This document shows positions 1,809 to 20,894 of a stretch of 32,994 nt of DNA, in pieces (position 1 is the first letter of the stretch; every line of letters begins with the position of its first letter). Below the pieces are notes generated by a model. That model had not been told where the DNA came from and ran no database searches. It worked only from the letters and a program-made list of their open reading frames with translations. Source of the DNA: Ignavibacteriota bacterium (GTDB taxonomy: Bacteria; Bacteroidota; Ignavibacteria; Kapaibacteriales; UBA961); contig JACPWH010000060.1 of NCBI GenBank assembly GCA_016197185.1, forward strand, positions 1 to 32,994. Direction: 5' to 3'. The position numbers and the translations under genes are program-made.

Positions 1809-2774
1809 TTGGAGCAATATCTTCCTTTTACAATTATTTCATCACGCCCACAGGAGTTTATGGTTTTTGCTGACGTCCAGACAAAATCACTATCAAATCC
1901 AATTTTGAAAATCAAGGGTATGGACGAAGATGTTTCAATATGGAATCAACTCCCACCGATTTTCCGAACAGAAACGTTTGTAAGGATTAAACCTGAATCG
2001 GAGGTTTTGGCTACCATCAAAGTGAATACAACATCTCTAAATGAATCTCTGATTTCTTCACGTGAATTCCAGGGTAAAAAATCAATAGCTATACTTGGGT
2101 ATGGATTATATCGTTGGAAATTGCTTGGAGAAGCTGCAGAAATTTCCAAAGGACGAAGTGATGCACCGGATGTTCTCACTACTTTCTTTCAAAATTCATC
2201 ACGCTGGCTGACAACTACCGACAATCAAAAAACAGTTCGGATTAAATCCACCAAAAAACTCTATGCAAGCGGTGAAAAAATTGAATTCATCGGTCAGATA
2301 TATGACCAAACCCTTGCACCGATTGACAATGCTGATGTTATAGTGAAAATATCCGGCGGTAAAACAACACGTGAGGTGCATCTTACTCCACTTACCAATG
2401 GTCGCTATAGTGGACAAGTGGAAGGTCTTGCTGAAGGTGACTACGCGTTTTCAGGTACAGTTTCTGTAGCACAGAAACCGTATGGTACAGATAACGGAAG
2501 ATTCAGTGTTGGTGATATCGCCCTTGAATTTCAAAATGTGAGGATGAACTCAGAACTTTTGCGTCAGATTGCTGAACGTACAGGCGGTAAATTCTACACA
2601 CCGGCAACAGCATCAGAGTTCTTAGAGGACTTAAAAAAGCAACCGACATTTTCCCCAAGAACGATTACCCAAAAATCTGAATTTGCATTGTGGAATTTGC
2701 CATGGCTTCTTGCAGCAGGTTTGCTTTGTTTTGCTATGGAGTGGTTTATTCGGAAAAGGTCGGGGATGGTGTAG
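1809..2774 (+). CDS. von Willebrand factor A membrane protein, C-terminal part (frameshifted)
   Basis: This is the continuation of the preceding gene in the -1 frame. The frame is already open upstream, and protein-like sequence (VASLQLIAQECERGKPILLV) begins near 1716, so 1809 (a TTG) is only a nominal start. The visible content is a glutamine-amidotransferase-like region (LGYGLYRWKLLGEA, near 2092-2133), an Ig-like or carboxypeptidase-regulatory-like segment (YASGEKIEFIGQIYD onward), and a C-terminal membrane helix (ALWNLPWLLAAGLLCFAMEW) with a short basic tail. That C-terminal anchor matches full-length members of the VWA family. The gene ends just before a block of palindromic repeats. Confidence 0.75.
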   Translation: MEQYLPFTIISSRPQEFMVFADVQTKSLSNPILKIKGMDEDVSIWNQLPPIFRTETFVRIKPESEVLATIKVNTTSLNESLISSREFQGKKSIAILGYGLYRWKLLGEAAEISKGRSDAPDVLTTFFQNSSRWLTTTDNQKTVRIKSTKKLYASGEKIEFIGQIYDQTLAPIDNADVIVKISGGKTTREVHLTPLTNGRYSGQVEGLAEGDYAFSGTVSVAQKPYGTDNGRFSVGDIALEFQNVRMNSELLRQIAERTGGKFYTPATASEFLEDLKKQPTFSPRTITQKSEFALWNLPWLLAAGLLCFAMEWFIRKRSGMV

Positions 2775-2786
2775 TATTCCAAAGAG

Positions 2787-2838
2787 TTTGTTCCGAAACT
2801 TTGTTCCGAAATTACTATTAATAGTTTCGGAACAAAGT
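2787..2838. repeat. palindrome, TTTGTTCCG version
   Basis: CTTTGTTCCGAAA at 2800-2812 pairs with TTTCGGAACAAAG at 2825-2837 around an AT-rich centre (ACTATTAATAGT, itself palindromic). A further half-copy, TTTGTTCCGAAAC, precedes it at 2787. It has the same architecture as the TTTGTCTCG palindromes elsewhere in the window but a different, compensated stem. Confidence 0.8.
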
Positions 2839-2890
2839 AAAGCTCCGGTAGGAGCAAAAATAGCAATAGTAACCGGATACCACAGATTCA

Positions 2891-3057
2891 TAAAGTTCCG
2901 TATGAGTGACATAGTAATAATAAGACAACCCACAAATCGATAAAGCTCCGTAGGAGTGACATAATAATAGAGACGCAAAGAATATATCGCTCCTATGGAG
3001 CTTTATCGTTTCTTGGGTTTGCATTACTATTGAGATTTATCCCCTACGGGGAAATTG
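2891..3057. repeat. stem-loop repeat units, direct and inverted
   Basis: Two direct copies of TAAAGYTCCGTAKGAGTGAC followed by ATARTAATA start at 2891 and 2941. The segment 2984-3008 (ATCGCTCCTATGGAGCTTTA) is an inverted copy that can pair with 2938-2962. The stretch from about 2987 to 3057, including the CCCCTACGGGG unit, is the reverse complement of a segment at 16316-16390 with few differences, so a composite element of about 70 bp is present at both sites. Confidence 0.8.
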
Positions 3058-3064
3058 AAAATAC

Positions 3065-3124
3065 TTTGTCTCGAAATTATGTCTCGAAACTATATATAGT
3101 AATTACGAGACAAAGTTTCGGAAC
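3065..3124. repeat. palindrome, TTTGTCTCG version with hybrid end
   Basis: TTTGTCTCGAAATTATGTCT begins at 3065, followed by an ACTATATATAGT core and GAGACAAAG, giving a hairpin. It runs straight into TTTCGGAACAA, the end of the other (TTCCG) version, so this copy looks like a hybrid or two overlapping copies. Confidence 0.75.
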
Positions 3125-3145
3125 AATAGACACATCTCAAATCCC

Positions 3146-4255
3146 TTACTGATTCCAATCAAAAAATATCACACCATTTGGATTAACCCCAACAGGAAAC
3201 TTCCTCTCCTGTTTCCATTCATTCTGTGGATTTAGAATCAGCAATTCTCCATTCGTTACGTACCCCTTTGCATTACATATCCATACTGTTCCGTCGTAAG
3301 GACACACATTTACACCATACCAATATTCATTAATCGCAGATTTTGCCACGAGTTTTGGTTGATGATTACCTTCGGCAGGCAAAATATACAAACCGTCATT
3401 ATTCAGAAAAAGAAGTGTATCGCCTGTTAATGAAAGATTGAAATTCTTGGCAATTTTCATTCTCCACCTGCGAAGTTCACTAAAGGTGACTGCATCATAT
3501 TCAACAATTCCTCCGAGTGAATCATCTTTCATGAATTGTGGTAAGTGAGTATAAAGAGCATAGAATTTTGATTTGGAGGGATGTATTCGAAGAGATTGTA
3601 CATCAGGTCCTGCAGGGATAACTGCAATTTCTGTATTTGAGAAAATATCAATTACAGAAATATTATGTGCTTTGATTTCCGGGTGTTCGTAGGCGTAGTC
3701 ACCGAATCCAGAATTTGCAGTAAAAACATATTTGTCCGTAGCTATAATTCCTTCCGGAGCATAACCTACAGCGATATTATCAGCTATTATTTCAAACGTT
3801 GCAGGATTAAACCGAGTAAGTGAATTCGTATGGAAGTCGGTAATAAACCCAATTGTATCATTGACAATTGTTATTTCCCTTGCTGCTCTGTTAGTACCGG
3901 GAAGAGTAATTCTGTTTATCCATTTTCCGGTTGAGATTCGAAATATTTCAACTGTTCCGCTTGTAGTAACAGCTACAAACGCAGTATCTCCTTTATTAAT
4001 AAAATCATTAGCAACATCACCCAGATGAAGGTTCGGGTTAGCGGCAGTAAAATAGTCTTGAACTGTAAGTGAGGAACTGCTTGAAAAACTATACCGATAT
4101 AGTGACGCATTATTATTGCCTCGAAGTCCCTCGCAAAGAATATAGGCACCTTTTCCAGTTGGAGTCAGATTAGTGTTATTTGCAGGCTGATTTGGCGTTG
4201 AAACGCACCCGTACAGGCACACAACATTTATAATTATCAATAAATTACGAAACAT
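3146..4255 (-). CDS. beta-propeller (YncE/BtuG-like) surface lipoprotein
   Basis: The 369-residue protein starts with a lipoprotein signal peptide (lipobox LYGC, Cys17). Repeated blade-like motifs follow: ITIVNDTIGFITDFHTNSLT, FTANSGFGDY, and VCPYDGTVWICNAKGYV near the C-terminus. They suit a seven-bladed YncE/DUF5074-type propeller. In Bacteroides, BtuG surface lipoproteins of this fold capture vitamin B12 for the BtuB receptor. I infer a similar ligand-capture role here, mainly from the neighbours. It lies 7 bp downstream of the secreted protein gene at 4263-5177 in the same operon. No TonB receptor is next to it, so the substrate is uncertain. Confidence 0.6.
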   Translation of the reverse strand: MFRNLLIIINVVCLYGCVSTPNQPANNTNLTPTGKGAYILCEGLRGNNNASLYRYSFSSSSSLTVQDYFTAANPNLHLGDVANDFINKGDTAFVAVTTSGTVEIFRISTGKWINRITLPGTNRAAREITIVNDTIGFITDFHTNSLTRFNPATFEIIADNIAVGYAPEGIIATDKYVFTANSGFGDYAYEHPEIKAHNISVIDIFSNTEIAVIPAGPDVQSLRIHPSKSKFYALYTHLPQFMKDDSLGGIVEYDAVTFSELRRWRMKIAKNFNLSLTGDTLLFLNNDGLYILPAEGNHQPKLVAKSAINEYWYGVNVCPYDGTVWICNAKGYVTNGELLILNPQNEWKQERKFPVGVNPNGVIFFDWNQ

Positions 4256-14677: not shown

Positions 14678-14749
14678 TTTTAAGTATTTTATTTCTAATA
14701 TCATTGCATTAGTTTATTGACGACTTTTCGACTATCAGGAACGCTCTTA

Positions 14750-15784
14750 ATGACACAAAAGACAAAATCCGCGCTTAGAATCACTCTCAGCATCCTGCTC
14801 GTTGTCGGCTCGCTGTATTATGCGCAGAGTGGAATTGACCTCGGCGCACTGATGGTTTCCCTCAAAAGGGCTAACTATTGGTGGGTATTGGCAACTATTC
14901 CGGTTATTCTGTTCTCCCATTGGCTACGTGCTTTGAGGTGGAAAACGATGCTCAAACCAACATTGAAGGATGCGAAGTTATCGGATTTGTTCTCGGCTGT
15001 GATGGTAGGCTATGCCGTTAATAATGTACTTCCTAAAGGCGGGGAATTTTTGCGTCCGCTTGTTTTTAGCAGGCGTGAGAAAGTGTCGTTTTCGCTTGTG
15101 ATGGCAACCATAATATTGGAACGGTTCATCTTTGATATGCCTGTAACGCTTATGATGGCAGCAGGTGTCTTTCTTTTCATGCGCAATGATATTGCAATTG
15201 CCTACCCAAACTTTACGCTTTCGCAACTGACGGGCATGGGTGTATTGGTTGCGGTTGTTTCGGCGTTTATTCTTGTGCTTGTATTATATCCAAGTCTTAC
15301 CGAATGGATATTGCAACACACAATCAGACGTTATTCACAAAGGGTTTATCTGCGGTTTCATCAACTTGTAGAATCATTCAGACGCGGATTTGAAATCGTT
15401 AAATCTCCGTCGCAATACTACCGCCTGATATTGGAATCCCTCGCTATATGGTTCGTGTATATTATTCCGATGTGGATGACATTCTATGCGTTCGGTTTTG
15501 ACACGTCGTTGGGTTTGGATTTTGGAGATGCTACCTTCCTGTTCATTATAGGGACAATTGCCTTTATTCTCCCTGCACCCGGTGGAGTGGGCTTATTCCA
15601 CACACTCGTTGCAGGTGCAATGATAAAACTTTACCGTATGGATGGTGCAGAAGCCCTTGCTTACGCTACACTTACACACGGAGTAGGGTATTTAATCACA
15701 TCGCTTGTGGGCGGGTTTTACTTTATTATGGAGAATAAGGGGCATCATTTGCCTGTGGTGACAGCGAGTGAGGAAGCGGGATAG
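14750..15784 (+). CDS. UPF0104 / lysylphosphatidylglycerol synthase TM-region family membrane protein
   Basis: The 344-residue polytopic membrane protein has about eight helices. Typical features are SHWLRALRWKTML near residue 55-67, NNVLPKGGEFLRPLVFSR (the conserved N-x-x-[LF]-P-x-[RK]-x-G-E signature), ILERFIFDM, and PAPGGVGLFHTLVAGAM near the C-terminus. Members include YbhN, AglD and the flippase part of MprF, and act in lipid or glycolipid handling. The substrate is unknown. I start at ATG 14750, as the longer frame from 14717 uses a non-ATG start and adds nothing conserved. The repeat array begins about 13 bp after its stop. Confidence 0.82.
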   Translation: MTQKTKSALRITLSILLVVGSLYYAQSGIDLGALMVSLKRANYWWVLATIPVILFSHWLRALRWKTMLKPTLKDAKLSDLFSAVMVGYAVNNVLPKGGEFLRPLVFSRREKVSFSLVMATIILERFIFDMPVTLMMAAGVFLFMRNDIAIAYPNFTLSQLTGMGVLVAVVSAFILVLVLYPSLTEWILQHTIRRYSQRVYLRFHQLVESFRRGFEIVKSPSQYYRLILESLAIWFVYIIPMWMTFYAFGFDTSLGLDFGDATFLFIIGTIAFILPAPGGVGLFHTLVAGAMIKLYRMDGAEALAYATLTHGVGYLITSLVGGFYFIMENKGHHLPVVTASEEAG

Positions 15785-15796
15785 TTGTCTTTCTTA

Positions 15797-16206
15797 AAAT
15801 CCCGTTAGGGATGTAATATCGGTAGAAAAAACAATCTACGCCACCTCTTATAATCCCGTTAGGGATGATATATCGGTAGATAACGCAGCCCCCATCACCC
15901 TCTTATAATCCCGTTAGGGATGTAATATCGGTAGAAAAATAATCCACGCCACCTCTTAATCCCGTTAGGGATGATATATCGGTAGGAAACGCAATCCCCA
16001 ATCCCCCTCTTATAATCCCGTTAGGGATGATATATCGGTAGATAACGCATCCCCAATCCCCCTCTTATAATCCTGTTAGGGATGACATATCGGTAGGAAA
16101 CGCAATCCCCAATCCCCCTCTTATAATCCCGTTAGGGATGAAATATCGGTAGAAATCAATACACAGCCCCCGTCTTAAAATCCCGTTAGGGATGAAATAT
16201 CGGTAT
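15797..16206 (+). repeat. eight tandem stem-loop repeat units, 51-56 bp period
   Basis: The unit core is CCCGTTAGGG followed by ATGAWATATCGGTAG. Cores begin at 15801, 15855, 15910, 15961, 16017, 16072 (CCT variant), 16128 and 16182. Spacing is 54, 55, 51, 56, 55, 56 and 54 bp. The segments between cores are also related to each other (for example GCAATCCCCAATCCCCCTCT recurs), so they are not independent spacers. The last unit pairs with an inverted copy at 16216-16238. Confidence 0.92.
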
Positions 16207-16292
16207 CCGCACAAAACCGATATGCCGTCCCTAACGGGACTTTGCTGTCGTGGTGTGCCATTTTCTACCGATATTTCGCCCCTATGGGGGCT
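16182..16292. repeat. inverted copies closing the array into a large hairpin
   Basis: CCCGTTAGGGA...ATATCGGT (16182-16204) pairs with ACCGATAT...TCCCTAACGGG (16216-16238), with a four-base mismatch in the middle of the stem. A second inverted unit, TACCGATATTTCGCCCC with TATGGGGGC, lies at 16266-16289 and has a CCCC/GGGG stem in place of CCC/GGG. Confidence 0.8.
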
Positions 16293-16315
16293 TGAGGAAA
16301 CCTTATACTGTAATC

Positions 16316-16390
16316 TATTTCCCCGAAGGGGATAAATCTCAATAGCAATGCAAACCCAAGAAACGACAAAGCTCCATAGGAGCGACATAG
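16316..16390. repeat. composite stem-loop element, copy A
   Basis: CCCCGAAGGGG followed by ATAAATCTCAATAGCAATGC, then AAACCCAAGAAACGACAAAG and CTCCATAGGAGCGACATAGG. It is the reverse complement of 2984-3057 with few changes, and is repeated with more divergence at 16497-16570. Confidence 0.8.
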
Positions 16391-16421
16391 GAATTTATCA
16401 GGCGAACAATAGTCTATTTAG

Positions 16422-16485
16422 TTTGTCTCGAAACTTTGTCTCGTAATTACTATGTATAGTTTCGAGACATAATTTCGAGACAAAG
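16422..16485. repeat. TTTGTCTCG palindrome, left of the R-M cassette (first copy)
   Basis: TTTGTCTCGAAAC is followed by TTTGTCTCGTAATTACTATG, then ATAGTTTCGAGACATAATTT and CGAGACAAAG. The halves pair around an AT-rich centre. Confidence 0.85.
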
Positions 16486-16496
16486 GTTTTCTATTT

Positions 16497-16570
16497 CCCC
16501 ATAGGGGATAAATCTCAATAGTAATGCATACCGCCAAAACGATAAAGCTCCATAGGAGCGATATAGGAAT
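16497..16570. repeat. composite stem-loop element, copy B
   Basis: CCCCATAGGGGATAAATCTC, AATAGTAATGCATACC, then GATAAAGCTCCATAGGAGCG and ATATAGG. Same order of parts as copy A; stem bases differ but still pair (CCCC-ATA-GGGG against CCCC-GAA-GGGG). Confidence 0.8.
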
Positions 16571-16578
16571 TTATTTAC

Positions 16579-16628
16579 TTTGTCTCGTAATTACTATATA
16601 TAGTTTCGAGACATAATTTCGAGACAAA
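16579..16628. repeat. TTTGTCTCG palindrome, left of the R-M cassette (second copy)
   Basis: TTTGTCTCGTAATTACTATA, then TATAGTTTCGAGACATAATT and TCGAGACAAA. Nearly the same as 16422-16485 but without the doubled first half. Confidence 0.85.
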
Positions 16629-16772
16629 CTTTCAAGATACCAGAAAAATGCTTTATGTTCAGTGTTTTTATTTGTAGTTTAGTACTCGCATGGAGTGCAA
16701 TGAACCGAAAAATAAATCGTCACTGTTTTATATGGATAAAATTTCAGATTACGACTTAAGTATCATATCAAT

Positions 16773-17558
16773 ATGAATAATATCGAAGAATATAGAAATA
16801 GAATCATTTGCGGTGATTGTCTTGAAACAATGCGTCAAATCCCAAGTGAAAGCATAGATTTGGTTGTTACTTCACCACCTTATAATTTGAAAAATTCAAC
16901 AGGTAACGGGATGAAAGCTAACACGAAAAGCGGTAAATGGGCGGGCGCAGCATTGCAAAATGGCTATACTCACCATGACGATTGTATGCCACACGATAAG
17001 TACAACGAATGGCAGCGAAACTGCCTTACTGAGATGTTTAGGCTCTTAAAGCCGACTGGAGCAATATTCTACAATCATAAATGGAGAGTACAAGCCGGAC
17101 TGTTACAGGACAGACGAGAAATTATCGATGGTTTTCCAATTCGTCAGATTATCATATGGAGAAGAAAAGGTGGAATAAACTTTAATCCAGGATATTTTCT
17201 TCCTACTTATGAAGTTATTTATATGATAACAAAACCCAATTTTTTATTAGCGGAAAAAGCAAATGCCTACGGTGATGTTTGGGAGTTCACTCAAGAAATG
17301 AAGAATGCACACCCTGCCCCTTTTCCTGTTGCTCTTATCGATAGAATAATATCTTCTACTAATGCTCAATTGATATTAGATCCGTTTAATGGTTCTGGGA
17401 CAACAAGTATTGTTGCAAAAGGATTAGGCAGGGATTATATTGGAATCGAAATTTCGCCAGAGTATTGTGAAATGGCTCAGGCAAGACTTGCTAAAAACAG
17501 GACTGAAACTGATCTCGCAAAGTTAAAGTTACAATCACAGCAACCCCTTTTCAACTAA
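16773..17558 (+). CDS. type II DNA methyltransferase, beta-class (N4-cytosine or N6-adenine)
   Basis: The 261-residue enzyme modifies an exocyclic amino group in the recognition site, protecting host DNA from the endonuclease encoded next. Catalytic motif IV, TSPPYN (33-38), precedes the SAM-binding motif I region DPFNGSGT (203-210), an order that places it in the beta class. SPPY-type motifs suit m4C or m6A. MvaI-type systems use m4C, so N4-cytosine is my preferred guess. The endonuclease gene begins 2 bp after its stop. The cassette is more AT-rich than its neighbours and is bracketed by palindromic repeats, as expected of a transferred module. Confidence 0.88.
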   Translation: MNNIEEYRNRIICGDCLETMRQIPSESIDLVVTSPPYNLKNSTGNGMKANTKSGKWAGAALQNGYTHHDDCMPHDKYNEWQRNCLTEMFRLLKPTGAIFYNHKWRVQAGLLQDRREIIDGFPIRQIIIWRRKGGINFNPGYFLPTYEVIYMITKPNFLLAEKANAYGDVWEFTQEMKNAHPAPFPVALIDRIISSTNAQLILDPFNGSGTTSIVAKGLGRDYIGIEISPEYCEMAQARLAKNRTETDLAKLKLQSQQPLFN

Positions 17559-17560
17559 AC

Positions 17561-18352
17561 ATGGACATATATAGTAAACAGGAATTAATTGAAAAATTAA
17601 AAGAAATCTCTGAAATGGAATGGGTTGAAAACGCTCGATATGGAAATCACGGAGGTGTTGGAAATACGCTAGAAGATCTTTTGGGAATTAAAGAAAATAA
17701 TCTCCCGATCCCTAACGCAGCAGAATGGGAATTAAAATGCCAAAGAAGAAGTACAAAATCACTTATGACTCTTACTCATTGTGAGCCATCACCTAGGGCA
17801 ATTAAGTTCGTACCATCTATTTTACTTCCATCCTACGGTTGGAGACACAAAGAAGCTGGGAAAAAACACTCAGAGAATGAAATGTCATTTAGACAAACTA
17901 TACATGGGCTTTCTCCAAGTGATAGGGGTTTTATGGTTAAAATAAATCGAGATGAGAGGAAAATCCTCATATCCTTTGATTCTACCAAAGTAAGTAAAAT
18001 TCATCGTAATTGGTTAGATACAGTAAATAATAAAGTCGGCAATATTAATGAACTTGCTCCTCAGCCATACTGGGGATTTGATGATTTAGAGCATATAGTA
18101 GGAGTCAAGCTTCTCAATTGCTTTTATGTTCAGGCTGAAGTTAAGAAGCAGAATGGTAAGGAATTTTATAGATACTCTTCAGTTCTTATGCTCAGGAAAT
18201 TCAATTTCAATCGTTTTTTAGATGAAATTGAGAAGGGTAATATCCTCATTGATTTTGATGCAAGGACAGGGCATAATCATGGAACAAAGTTTCGTTTACG
18301 CAGAAGTTTATTTCCTAATTTGTATGAAGAAGCCACAGTTATTATTGGCTAA
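17561..18352 (+). CDS. MvaI/BcnI-family type II restriction endonuclease
   Basis: The 263-residue protein has the family signature GNTLEDLLGIKENNLPIP (34-51), followed directly by the active-site segment NAAEWELKCQRR (52-63), where E57-L58-K59 is the ExK part of a PD-(D/E)xK nuclease. A basic, aromatic C-terminal half (HNHGTKFRLRRSLFPNLYEE) would contact DNA. MvaI and BcnI act as monomers on CCWGG- and CCSGG-type sites; the specificity here cannot be read. Oddly, the position just after P51, where I expect the catalytic Asp, is Asn52. It is 2 bp from the methyltransferase gene, and a palindrome follows 28 bp after its stop. Confidence 0.8.
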   Translation: MDIYSKQELIEKLKEISEMEWVENARYGNHGGVGNTLEDLLGIKENNLPIPNAAEWELKCQRRSTKSLMTLTHCEPSPRAIKFVPSILLPSYGWRHKEAGKKHSENEMSFRQTIHGLSPSDRGFMVKINRDERKILISFDSTKVSKIHRNWLDTVNNKVGNINELAPQPYWGFDDLEHIVGVKLLNCFYVQAEVKKQNGKEFYRYSSVLMLRKFNFNRFLDEIEKGNILIDFDARTGHNHGTKFRLRRSLFPNLYEEATVIIG

Positions 18353-18380
18353 GGATTGCCCTCCCCCCACCACAAAAAAC

Positions 18381-18443
18381 TTTGTCTCGAAACTTTGTCT
18401 CGAAACTACTATGTGTAATTACGAGACATAATTTCGAGACAAA
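18381..18443. repeat. TTTGTCTCG palindrome, right of the R-M cassette
   Basis: TTTGTCTCGAAAC then TTTGTCTCGAAACTACTATG, then TGTAATTACGAGACATAATT and TCGAGACAAA. Closely similar to 16422-16485; the two sites bracket the R-M genes. Confidence 0.85.
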
Positions 18444-18463
18444 CGGTTAACAGGAACGTTATA

Positions 18464-18679
18464 TTAATTCCCTATATAATCCAAATAGTTAGGGTGCATT
18501 GTGTACTGAATTTCCTTTGTCTCGATATTCTCTTTTGCAGTTTCGAGACTTACTTTGGAGACAAACTTTCGATACAACCCGCGACGTTGCTGTTCAATTA
18601 ATCCAACTGTTAACGACTCATTAATCCAACGCATTGCAGCTGCTCTCGCAATCCCATACTCCCCATTCAGCACCTCCAT
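18464..18679 (-). CDS. winged-helix-like C-terminal part of the ATPase, in a shifted frame
   Basis: A 71-residue frame (MEVLNGEYGIARAAAMRWIN, ESLTVGLIEQQRRGLYRKF) overlaps the end of the ATPase frame by 59 bp. The segment AAAMRWINESLTVGLIEQ, followed by RRGLYRK, looks like a winged-helix tail as found at the end of RecA-like mobile-element ATPases. It reads back into plausible sequence (VRNSKYLMEVL) where the ATPase frame degenerates. I favour a frameshift that split one gene over a true overlapping gene. Its last 40 or so codons contain a palindromic repeat (18516-18565), translated as FVSKVSLETAKENIETK. Confidence 0.5.
   Translation of the reverse strand: MEVLNGEYGIARAAAMRWINESLTVGLIEQQRRGLYRKFVSKVSLETAKENIETKEIQYTMHPNYLDYIGN
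18516..18565. repeat. diverged TTTGTCTCG palindrome inside coding sequence
   Basis: TTTGTCTCGATATTCTCTTT opens the element, followed by TGCAGTTTCGAGACTTACTT and TGGAGACAAA. The outer arms still pair and the spacing equals that of the intergenic copies, but the centre has diverged. It lies within the open frame at 18464-18679 without breaking it. Confidence 0.75.
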
Positions 18680-19361
18680 CAAATATTTCGAGTTGCGAAC
18701 GTACTATCTGTTTGAAGGCATTTGCACCCAAAAATGTTCCGAGCGCGCTTGCCTTGTCGGACGTATGGTGATTGAAAAGAATGGAGCATCCACCGTCCTT
18801 CAAAAATTCAATCTGACTTTTCAGCACACGGATTGAATCGTTGTCGTTCAGTTTTGCATTGAATTTCACAATGAAATCACTGTAGGAGTCAATCACAATC
18901 AAGTCGAATTTCTGACGTGAAAGTTCCTCGCGAAAGAACGTGAGCATTTCTTCGCCCGTGTCGAAATTCTGCATATTGACTACCGTCATATTTTCCAAGT
19001 CCCTCATATTGTATTCGATTCCATTACAGTTCTTACGAAGGTAGCGGCGAATCCAATTCTCATTTTCCTCCGAGAAGCAGTACATTGCCTTACCGTATGT
19101 CGGTGTAAGTTCGTCATTCAGGAATGCAGTTTGCCGCGAAGCAATCGACAGGCAAAGCTGACGGCAAAACGTGCTTTTGTTCACACCGCTTTTGCCGACG
19201 ATTCCCAAAAATTCCCCTTTCGGGAAAATCTCTCCCCATAAAAACGGGACTTTAATATCCGGTTCGCTTAATAATTGCAGCAGCGTTTTGCTTTGGGCTT
19301 GCGAGGGTGTTTGCGCGAGTATTTCGCGTAATGTGTCGCCTAAGCGTGGTGTTTGGTTCAT
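18621..19361 (-). CDS. RecA-like AAA ATPase (RepA/AAA_25-type helicase), C-terminus frame-broken
   Basis: The 246-residue product resembles hexameric RepA/DnaB-like or AAA_25 ATPases of plasmids and phages. An unusual Walker A, GKSGVNKST (56-64), is present, with Asn61 where Gly is normal. Walker B is KFDLIVIDSY (151-160), and a sensor-like LFNHHTSDKA starts near 195. The last 25 or so residues (DGGAEWGVWDCESSCNALD) look unlike protein of this family, while the -18464 frame continues sensibly, so the true C-terminus has probably been shifted out of frame near 18690-18710. It overlaps the Toprim gene by ATGA (19358-19361), indicating coupling of primase and helicase, a common replication pair in mobile elements. 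Confidence 0.7.
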   Translation of the reverse strand: MNQTPRLGDTLREILAQTPSQAQSKTLLQLLSEPDIKVPFLWGEIFPKGEFLGIVGKSGVNKSTFCRQLCLSIASRQTAFLNDELTPTYGKAMYCFSEENENWIRRYLRKNCNGIEYNMRDLENMTVVNMQNFDTGEEMLTFFREELSRQKFDLIVIDSYSDFIVKFNAKLNDNDSIRVLKSQIEFLKDGGCSILFNHHTSDKASALGTFLGANAFKQIVRSQLEIFDGGAEWGVWDCESSCNALD

Positions 19362-20134
19362 AGTGTTCCTCCCCTTTCAATAAAATCGGTTACGTCGCCC
19401 TTATGTGGCAGGTCGGGCATCAAATCAGTTAAATTATATATTACCACTTTGTTTGCTTTTCCCTTCAGGGAATCATATACTAATTGTGCATGGGCTTTGC
19501 CAGCGTCGTCATTGTCTGGAAGAATTACACAATTCAACCCTTTCAATAGATCACTGTAACTGCTTTTCCACTTGCCTGCTCCCATCGGATTGCAGGTGGC
19601 AGGTACTCCCCATTTGTGCCAAATTGTGTCTGCGTCTTTTTCCCCTTCTACTATATATACTGTAAATTCATCCCTACAAAGGGATGTCCTGAATATGTTG
19701 ATGAGCGGAGCGTTGTAGAGTGTAAGGTGTACGCCTTCTATGCCGCGCTCCCATATACCGAGTTTCCTGAATGCCTGTTCTTCATCGCTCCATTCCAGCG
19801 TGCCCGTCCATTTGTATTGGAAACAGAGTTTCTTCCCGAATGAATTTCGGTAAATGACTATTTTCATAAGGTAGTTATCCCCTGCTTCGTTCCAATAAAT
19901 ATGCTGGCGAACGAATTTCTTAGTGTAGTTTTCTTCGCGCCTTTCTATTTTTTCCTGAATGGTTGCATTGTCTTCAGGGGAAGGTGGCAGGGGTACATCT
20001 TTCTTTGGCGAAAAGAACTTATTGCATGTCCAACATTTCCCGCCAGTCGGGTGTGAGGTGAGTTTGTTGAACCGTTTGTGTTCCCCGCACGGACAGAGGG
20101 ACGGGGCTTTGCTGAACGTGAATGGTATGTTCAT
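19358..20134 (-). CDS. zinc-finger Toprim primase-like protein of a mobile element
   Basis: The 258-residue protein opens with a CPC...CWTC zinc ribbon (Cys14, 16, 34, 37), as in phage-type primases. It then has a middle domain containing KLCFQYKWTGTLEW, and a Toprim fold with VEGEKDAD (E163 and D167) and ILPDNDDAGKAHA (D207, D209, D210) as the metal-binding acids. It most likely primes DNA synthesis for a plasmid, phage or integrated element, together with the overlapping ATPase gene. No integrase, relaxase or capsid genes are near, so this is probably a remnant. No clear promoter was found upstream. Confidence 0.75.
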   Translation of the reverse strand: MNIPFTFSKAPSLCPCGEHKRFNKLTSHPTGGKCWTCNKFFSPKKDVPLPPSPEDNATIQEKIERREENYTKKFVRQHIYWNEAGDNYLMKIVIYRNSFGKKLCFQYKWTGTLEWSDEEQAFRKLGIWERGIEGVHLTLYNAPLINIFRTSLCRDEFTVYIVEGEKDADTIWHKWGVPATCNPMGAGKWKSSYSDLLKGLNCVILPDNDDAGKAHAQLVYDSLKGKANKVVIYNLTDLMPDLPHKGDVTDFIERGGTL

Positions 20135-20448
20135 AATGCGTGTATGATAATGAGGCGTAATTAAAATTTTAATTAATACTCCGCAACATTATTAAATTTA
20201 TTATGAACTCACGAACGATATTTTTGAGATTTTTATTTGGGGCTGTTATTGTTTGATATTTATTGAATTTCAGAATAGTAAGATTTTACAAGTCAGCTTC
20301 ACTCTGAACGGGAACAAACGATGTATTTCAATTTGCAAAATTGACTTCAATGCTTTACAATTCATAAAGTTACTGCTTACGTACATATCTTTGGCAGCAA
20401 GCATCCCCGATATTCTTTCCCAATCTATCGCTTGAACTTGAAAATCCA
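20135..20448. other. intergenic region with no supported gene
   Basis: AT-rich gap between the primase-like gene and the rplS promoter. A 59-codon minus-strand frame (20270-20449, beginning MDFQVQAIDWERISGMLAAK) has natural-looking codons but overlaps the rplS promoter and matches nothing I know. I see no repeat, tRNA or attachment-site signature here. Confidence 0.5.
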
Positions 20449-20480
20449 TTTGGTTACTTCGAAAAATAGCCGTATCTTTG
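20449..20480 (+). promoter_or_regulatory. Bacteroidota-type promoter of rplS
   Basis: TTTG (20449-20452), a 20-bp spacer, then TATCTTTG (20473-20480) is a perfect match to TTTG-N19/20-TAnnTTTG. Transcription would start near 20486, about 28 bp before the rplS start codon. Confidence 0.85.
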
Positions 20481-20513
20481 TGTCTTCATTTTTAAGTCAA
20501 TAAGAGAGAAGTC

Positions 20514-20894
20514 ATGAACAAAGTTGATGCAATAGATCAAATACAAATGGCAAAGGCACTCGAAGTGCGCCGCAGCAAGAGTGAATCCGGTACATCGGAG
20601 ATTCCTTCGTTTCGTCCGGGTGATACTGTTGTGGTGGCTGTACGTGTTATCGAAGGTGAAAAAGAGCGCGTTCAAAATTATCAAGGAATTGTTATCGCAC
20701 GTCGCGGTTCGGGTATCAATGCTACTTTTCGTGTTCGTAAAGTATCCAATGGCGTGGGTGTTGAGCGTATTTTCCCGCTCTACTCACCTATTATCCAAAG
20801 TATAGATGTAGTACGTCAGGGTAATGCCCGCCGTTCTAAACTCTATTATTTACGTGGAATGTCAGAGAAGAAGATCAGAGCGAAACTAAGCTGA
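20514..20894 (+). CDS. rplS: 50S ribosomal protein L19
   Basis: L19 sits at the 30S-50S interface of the ribosome. The 126-residue product has the family hallmarks [40 protein letters not shown], the [20 protein letters not shown] signature and [17 protein letters not shown]. Its length is normal for Bacteroidota. It stands as a single-gene unit with its own promoter and terminator; the usual partners trmD, rimM and rpsP are absent. Confidence 0.97.

Follow-up and report, generated by a model that had tools for sequence, protein, structure and literature searches.

A diverged palindromic repeat in the probably decayed 3′ end of an ATPase gene of an Ignavibacteriota bacterium

How does a palindromic repeat come to lie inside an open reading frame? 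The nearest known parallel is the ERIC fusion at an amidase gene end: in E. carotovora, the ECA3499 amidase gene ends in a repeat that follows its conserved domain and is read in frame, the normal stop codon apparently having been lost, and another fusion, SC2711, is regarded as not being a functional gene (Delihas 2007, PMC2759123). The RPE elements of Rickettsia measure about 150 bp, and nearly half of the copies in R. conorii, these being members of three among ten families, are located within ORFs (PMC10969869). REPs, marked by GTAG/CGTC, are short palindromes found mostly downstream of genes and between unidirectional and converging genes, and some are known to occur where coding regions end (PMC3733652). 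From the Porphyromonas gingivalis element BrickBuilt, a minisatellite within a MITE has been reported (PMC4596501).

Here, we analyzed a window of 32,994 nucleotides from an Ignavibacteriota bacterium (assembly GCA_016197185.1, contig JACPWH010000060.1, positions 1–32,994, forward strand), in which an earlier note had pointed out an RPE-like palindrome at 18516–18565 that might extend or change the C-terminus of a mobile-element ATPase. We consider this segment to be, with a probability of roughly 0.8, a gene-end palindrome sitting where an ATPase pseudogene has decayed at its 3′ end, rather than a working protein addition. In the scenario that we favor, a repeat family residing mostly between genes, with one third of its copies just behind stop codons, would have met a phage- or plasmid-type ATPase gene in decay, from which 84–89 residues were lost and whose C-terminal part was left out of frame. 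The repeat would either have arrived at the gene end, or have become the gene end when the original tail and its stop codon were lost; this order of events is one that we infer. The repeat segment would have no function in a protein, and intact copies may act as hairpins at transcript ends. As a protein finding, 18516–18565 is ordinary. It does carry a warning for draft genomes: where an open frame traverses a palindromic repeat, that frame can be an orphaned gene end. Of more use is the repeat family itself, with clear matches in only two of the 14 genomes of the taxonomic family that were searched and no copy at an orthologous site in the third genome of the genus. Its arms keep pairing while they change, which renders the origin of such palindromes, and selection on pairing, testable.

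Table 1. Features discussed, by window position. Bit scores are those of the covariance model built from ten other copies (R1); distances to genes were counted by coordinates.
Feature	Position	Strand	Evidence or score
Diverged nested-palindrome copy, 3-unit short form	18516..18565	.	Identity, shuffles, covariance models
Orphaned 3′ end of ATPase gene, shifted frame	18464..18691	-	tblastn
AAA_25 ATPase core, cut short by deletion and frame change	18621..19361	-	Pfam PF13481, E 2.8e-13
Primase-like gene, presumed ATPase partner in element remnant	19358..20134	-	PHROG matches
Full 63-base copy, 29 bases past restriction endonuclease gene end	18381..18443	.	87.3 bits
Full 63-base copy upstream of methyltransferase gene	16422..16484	.	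84.9 bits
Short 3-unit copy, length and spacing as in 18516-18565	16579..16628	.	52.0 bits as 16570-16628
Full copy, 19 bases past end of gene 3146-4255(-)	3065..3127	.	79.1 bits
Short copy with TTTGTTCCG unit, 13 bases past end of gene 1809-2774(+)	2787..2836	.	46.0 bits as 2787-2841

What kind of repeat is this? Full copies comprise ~63 bases, in which two 13-base units are followed by a loop and by both units again in inverted form, and the copies listed range from 50 to 66 bases. Within a copy, the units change largely in concert, as judged by eye (TTTGTCTCG, TTTGTTCCG, TTAGTCCCG, TTAGTCTCA). When 18 copies were aligned, 92.6% of cells paired (83.1% in shuffles) and two-sided changes were present in 44 cells (17.0 in shuffles), while the covariation score of 0.360 was reached by none of 500 shuffles and did not exceed 0.164 when the partner was slid by one to three columns; these shuffles do not preserve the relatedness of the copies. 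Two further counts were not outstanding: a two-sided change occurred in eight of the 18 pairs, which 38 of 500 shuffles also reached, and for further pair types all 500 attained the observed count (28 and 491 of 500, respectively, in an alignment of ten copies). Across the 18 copies, 90.9% of cells in the outer arms are paired, i.e., terminal inverted repeats are present as in MITEs.

In searches with the covariance model built from 18 other copies (R2), where 150 first-look candidates were scored per genome and copies may hence be missed, the family occupied at least 13 places in its own genome besides 18516–18565 and at least nine in the congener G002. A second congener, G001, returned one weak, different-looking hairpin, and 11 other genomes of the taxonomic family returned no match. 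A pattern search of 122 genomes of the order gave more than one match only in the own genome and G002; single matches with two mismatches in five other genomes were set aside as background, a control pattern behaving alike (one match each in four non-own genomes and one in the own genome). A half-repeat pattern had no exact viral match. The family is one of low-copy, interspersed nested palindromes, and two of the three genus genomes searched hold clear matches to it. No description of it was found among open-licence papers.

Most copies lie between genes. We examined 21 of the others—13 from the own genome and eight of the nine in G002, C420 being left out—against mechanically called ORFs of at least 80 aa, from which those overlapped by longer ones had been dropped. 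Eighteen of them overlap no such ORF and three do, with no Pfam family in the two overlapped ORFs; seven, as a raw count, are situated no more than 100 bases beyond the stop codon of an ORF of this size. Two copies share the gap between the converging genes 1809–2774 and 3146–4255. The orthologous gap of G002 holds one element, 12 and 29 bases (by coordinates) from the two gene ends, and that of G001 holds none, the stops there being 14 bases apart. Presence thus varies at an orthologous site, be it by gain or by loss. An exact direct repeat of 3–7 bases abutting both ends was seen at none of 22 copies, and one of 2 bases at a single copy. A terminator scan of 18300–18800 revealed no hairpin with T run at 18516–18565, and a terminator-like site inside the neighboring copy (18406–18384, minus strand; 0.5 expected), whose fold reaches −18.2 kcal/mol (z −6.78).

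The position at gene ends may recall that of REPs, which are likewise short palindromes. However, a terminal GTAG/CGTC within six bases of the end is found in only one of 22 copies, inside its unit, and a linked RAYT gene is not apparent: a single Y1_Tnp gene exists in the own genome and none in the two congeners (G002 being 82% complete), and model R2 has no match in the locus around that sole gene. The copy number, at the level given above, differs from that of REPs, too. With MITEs, the family shares terminal inverted repeats and variable presence at an orthologous site, but not an exact target-site duplication. The likeness to BrickBuilt, a small interspersed element with repeated internal units, is one by description only.

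Could the element be defined by its shape more than by its sequence? The ATPase has an intact paralogue in the same genome, and 17 bases (by coordinates) behind the stop codon of this paralogue there is a 63-base nested palindrome that has the family layout but an unrelated unit, TTTCTGCAACAAC (L036:2728–2790). Model R2 did not find it at E 1, so that its fit to the family concerns layout only. A scan for the layout alone yielded 26 matches in 170,480 bases, and 20 shuffles combined gave 25; with likeness of the left-hand pair of units as a requirement, 15 matches remained as opposed to none in 20 shuffles, counts that are biased upwards because many loci were fetched for carrying copies. This supports an excess of such structures over chance. 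That the element consists, in essence, of four ~13-base units, two direct and two inverted, nested within ~63 bases, is a possibility that we consider less likely than not. If true, machinery of an undescribed kind would copy or maintain a shape at gene ends, and 18516–18565 would be a gene-end shape element that became readable once the gene decayed.

Two structures in G002 may be recorded alongside. A layout match with a GTAACGCAACA-like unit adjoins a family copy at L076:2987–3053, and a long hairpin lies beside the first gene of the ATPase cassette at L037:964–1030; the gene on the other side of this hairpin is presumably tryptophan-dioxygenase-like.

In the window, a restriction-modification pair, consisting of an N6_N4 methyltransferase (16773–17558) and an MvaI/BcnI-type endonuclease (17561–18352), lies between palindrome copies, and 16422–16489 and 18381–18448 are 90% alike in direct orientation. 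The stretch 15784–20514, behind the LPG-synthase-like gene 14717–15784, has different contents in each of the three genus genomes: behind the orthologue, G002 carries two palindromes along with genes that belong to no Pfam family, and G001 has a converging ORF of 1041 aa directly next to it. At 15790–16390 and 2880–3061 there are interspersed repeats of other kinds, whose units include AATCCCGTTAGGGATGATATATCGGTAGA and GCTCCATAGGAGCGACATA, and 2983–3061 is 91% complementary to 16487–16565.

Do the palindromes, then, mark cassettes or help to move them, with 18516–18565 as one cassette border? This proposal would be compatible with a gene-end palindrome in a decayed ATPase gene. Copies starting at 16422 and 16579 precede the restriction-modification pair and those at 18381 and 18516 follow it, and in G002, too, two copies are located behind the orthologue of gene 14717–15784. 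Yet many copies elsewhere adjoin genes that look ordinary by eye, flanking direct repeats of 3–7 bases are lacking as described, and the region in question differs among the three genomes anyway. We therefore regard a role in cassettes as rather unlikely.

The argument for decay comes from the host gene. Its core is 58% identical (tblastn) to two close homologues, the above paralogue in the own genome (L012, 466 aa) and one in G002 (L010, 433 aa, running off its contig). Among 123 genomes of the order no further close homologue was added, and a distant match (27% identity, G025) was left out of the comparison. The core had no match among phages and plasmids at E 1e-5, nor among viral contigs in a pattern-limited search, and a search of the genome collection, limited in the same manner, retrieved solely the already known congener. 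The adjacent primase-like gene matches the PHROG DNA primase and primase/helicase families (E 3.9e-11 and 4.4e-11).

Beyond the core, both homologues continue with a linker, a C-terminal part ending in Y-R-K and a variable tail. From its residues, the C-terminal part may be a helix-turn-helix-like domain; no Pfam family scored above cut-off for it. In the window, similarity to the core runs in frame −2, clear to about 18684 and extended by BLAST to 18639, and the C-terminal part follows in frame −3 at 18691–18566, where it aligns with L010 residues 359–400 (43% identity, E 1e-4, tblastn). L012 matches the same part at E 8e-4, with a weak continuation to 18482 after a 6-residue gap behind YRK. 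What is missing corresponds to residues 275–358 of L010 or 298–386 of L012. The break is located somewhere in 18639–18691, the ATPase frame itself ends at 18621, and the whole-model match to the ATPase passes through one TGA and one TAA. Taken as homology indicates, the frame at 18464–18691 is the frame-shifted tail of a broken gene and not an intact gene. Assignment of this frame to the tail of a mobile-element ATPase, as the earlier note had it, is hence borne out by tblastn homology to both relatives. The stretch it gave, 18464–18679, is indeed open; the listed ORF, however, runs over 18464–18682, and its TTG start is not credible, because homology marks the frame as the out-of-frame 3′ end of the ATPase gene. 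A genomic match to the tail (G000 C311, E 0.0139) was dropped, the ORFs there looking unrelated to the ATPase. Scanning the window with Rfam at gathering thresholds yielded no match, and no tRNA was found.

Alternatively, the frame change may be an assembly error or be bridged by ribosomal frameshifting, and a shortened ATPase with a neutral, repeat-coded tail would be made. From 18624 to 18703 neither frame contains a stop, and an error of a single base would therefore join the two; in a draft assembly the frame change alone could be erroneous, leaving such a protein possible. The loss of 84–89 residues would still be required separately, though, and we deem this explanation unlikely.

In the case of an RPE-like event, the palindrome would have entered the gene of a working ATPase in frame, providing it with a functional C-terminal extension. 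In favor of this, the segment lies directly behind the conserved part, the L010 match stopping at 18566 and the repeat beginning at 18565, immediately behind the YRK codons, which are the last with clear conservation, and the frame is open to a stop. Neither relative has repeat-like sequence in its tail, be it by inspection or with model R2, and precedents exist in RPE (PMC10969869) and ERIC (PMC2759123). Against it, the ATPase gene is divided between two frames and lacks 84–89 residues, on which ground a functional in-frame extension was rejected. Moreover, the tail after YRK comprises 33 residues in the window, 43 in L012 and at least 33 in L010, which leaves its contig there; the relatives' tails being no shorter, a clean insertion is not demonstrated. 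Third-position bias is absent among the differences from a sister copy, and no ORF of a recognized family contains any of the 21 other copies. We thus judge a functional extension very unlikely. There are only two close relatives and their tails align poorly, which leaves room for various original tails and for an in-frame insertion into a once-working gene.

The comparison with homologues that the earlier note had proposed therefore came out divided: the repeat is indeed not shared by the two relatives, and the result that would have spoken against it, repeat-free relatives with the same residues, was not seen in them, whereas the tail is no longer than theirs. Its parallel to Rickettsia holds for a palindromic repeat translated within a protein-coding frame, but extends neither to size, copies here being 50–63 bp long, nor to an intact host gene, the one copy concerned lying in a pseudogene that has lost residues and changed frame. 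ERIC/RU elements resemble our case as small interspersed repeats read in frame at a gene 3′ end, although their sequence is another one, they measure 103–168 bp, and in the amidase the conserved domain stays in frame while the ATPase gene here is broken.

How informative is the open frame itself? On the minus strand, the conserved C-terminal part is followed by the repeat and by 16 codons up to a TAA. The repeat translates as FVSKVSLETAKENIETK without a stop, exactly as had been noted, and is followed by EIQYTMHPNYLDYIGN and then the stop. Of random 51-base stretches from one shuffled window, 38% were open, and among the 21 sister copies the numbers open in each of the six frames are 7, 9, 1, 11, 8 and 2. 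The openness at 18516–18565 is unremarkable, an open frame of one kind or another being common among the copies. The 12 differences from 16579–16628 fall on codon positions 1, 2 and 3 in the numbers 6, 3 and 3; with 12 differences the evidence is weak, and there is no sign of coding constraint.

All of this presupposes that 18516–18565 truly is a diverged copy of the local palindrome, a claim of the earlier note that our comparisons confirm. Its layout can be read as one unit on the left and two inverted units on the right. Without gaps, 38 of its 50 bases are identical to 16579–16628 (plus strand, same register), to the last 50 bases of 16422–16484 (plus) and to the last 50 of 3065–3127 (minus); 37 positions match 18381–18443 and 31 match 2787–2836. 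When 16579–16628 was searched against the rest of the window, all copies being masked, the best match was 27/50, and the maxima were 31/50 in 200 dinucleotide shuffles of the window and 29/50 in 2000 shuffles of 18451–18700. The segment scored 26.1 bits with model R1 (E 0.00097 over the window) and 26.7 bits with model R2 (E 0.0093 over 170 kb). It is absent from the whole-genome results of the covariance-model searches at E 0.1 (150 candidates scored per genome), and the 9-mer TTTGTCTCG by itself shows no genomic enrichment (22 matches, 11 of them inside the window, versus 36 for the backwards pattern), so the case for this copy is a local one. A 63-base register, 18516–18578, preferred by model R1, was set aside: identity there is 40–44/63, its extra end covers the conserved YRK codons, and model R2 ends at 18565.

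That these residues are simply ATPase tail and resemble the repeat by chance is extremely improbable: the YRK codons just upstream also look like a repeat unit (TATCGAAA) though the relatives share them, making part of the likeness here coincidental, and the L012 alignment passes weakly across the repeat, but no shuffled window exceeded 31/50 and model R2 finds nothing in the relatives' tails. As for structure, the copy by itself folds weakly as a single strand (−6.2 kcal/mol, z −2.49) next to the five other window copies (−9.0 to −18.2 kcal/mol), and nine of its 12 differences from 16579–16628 are at loop positions.
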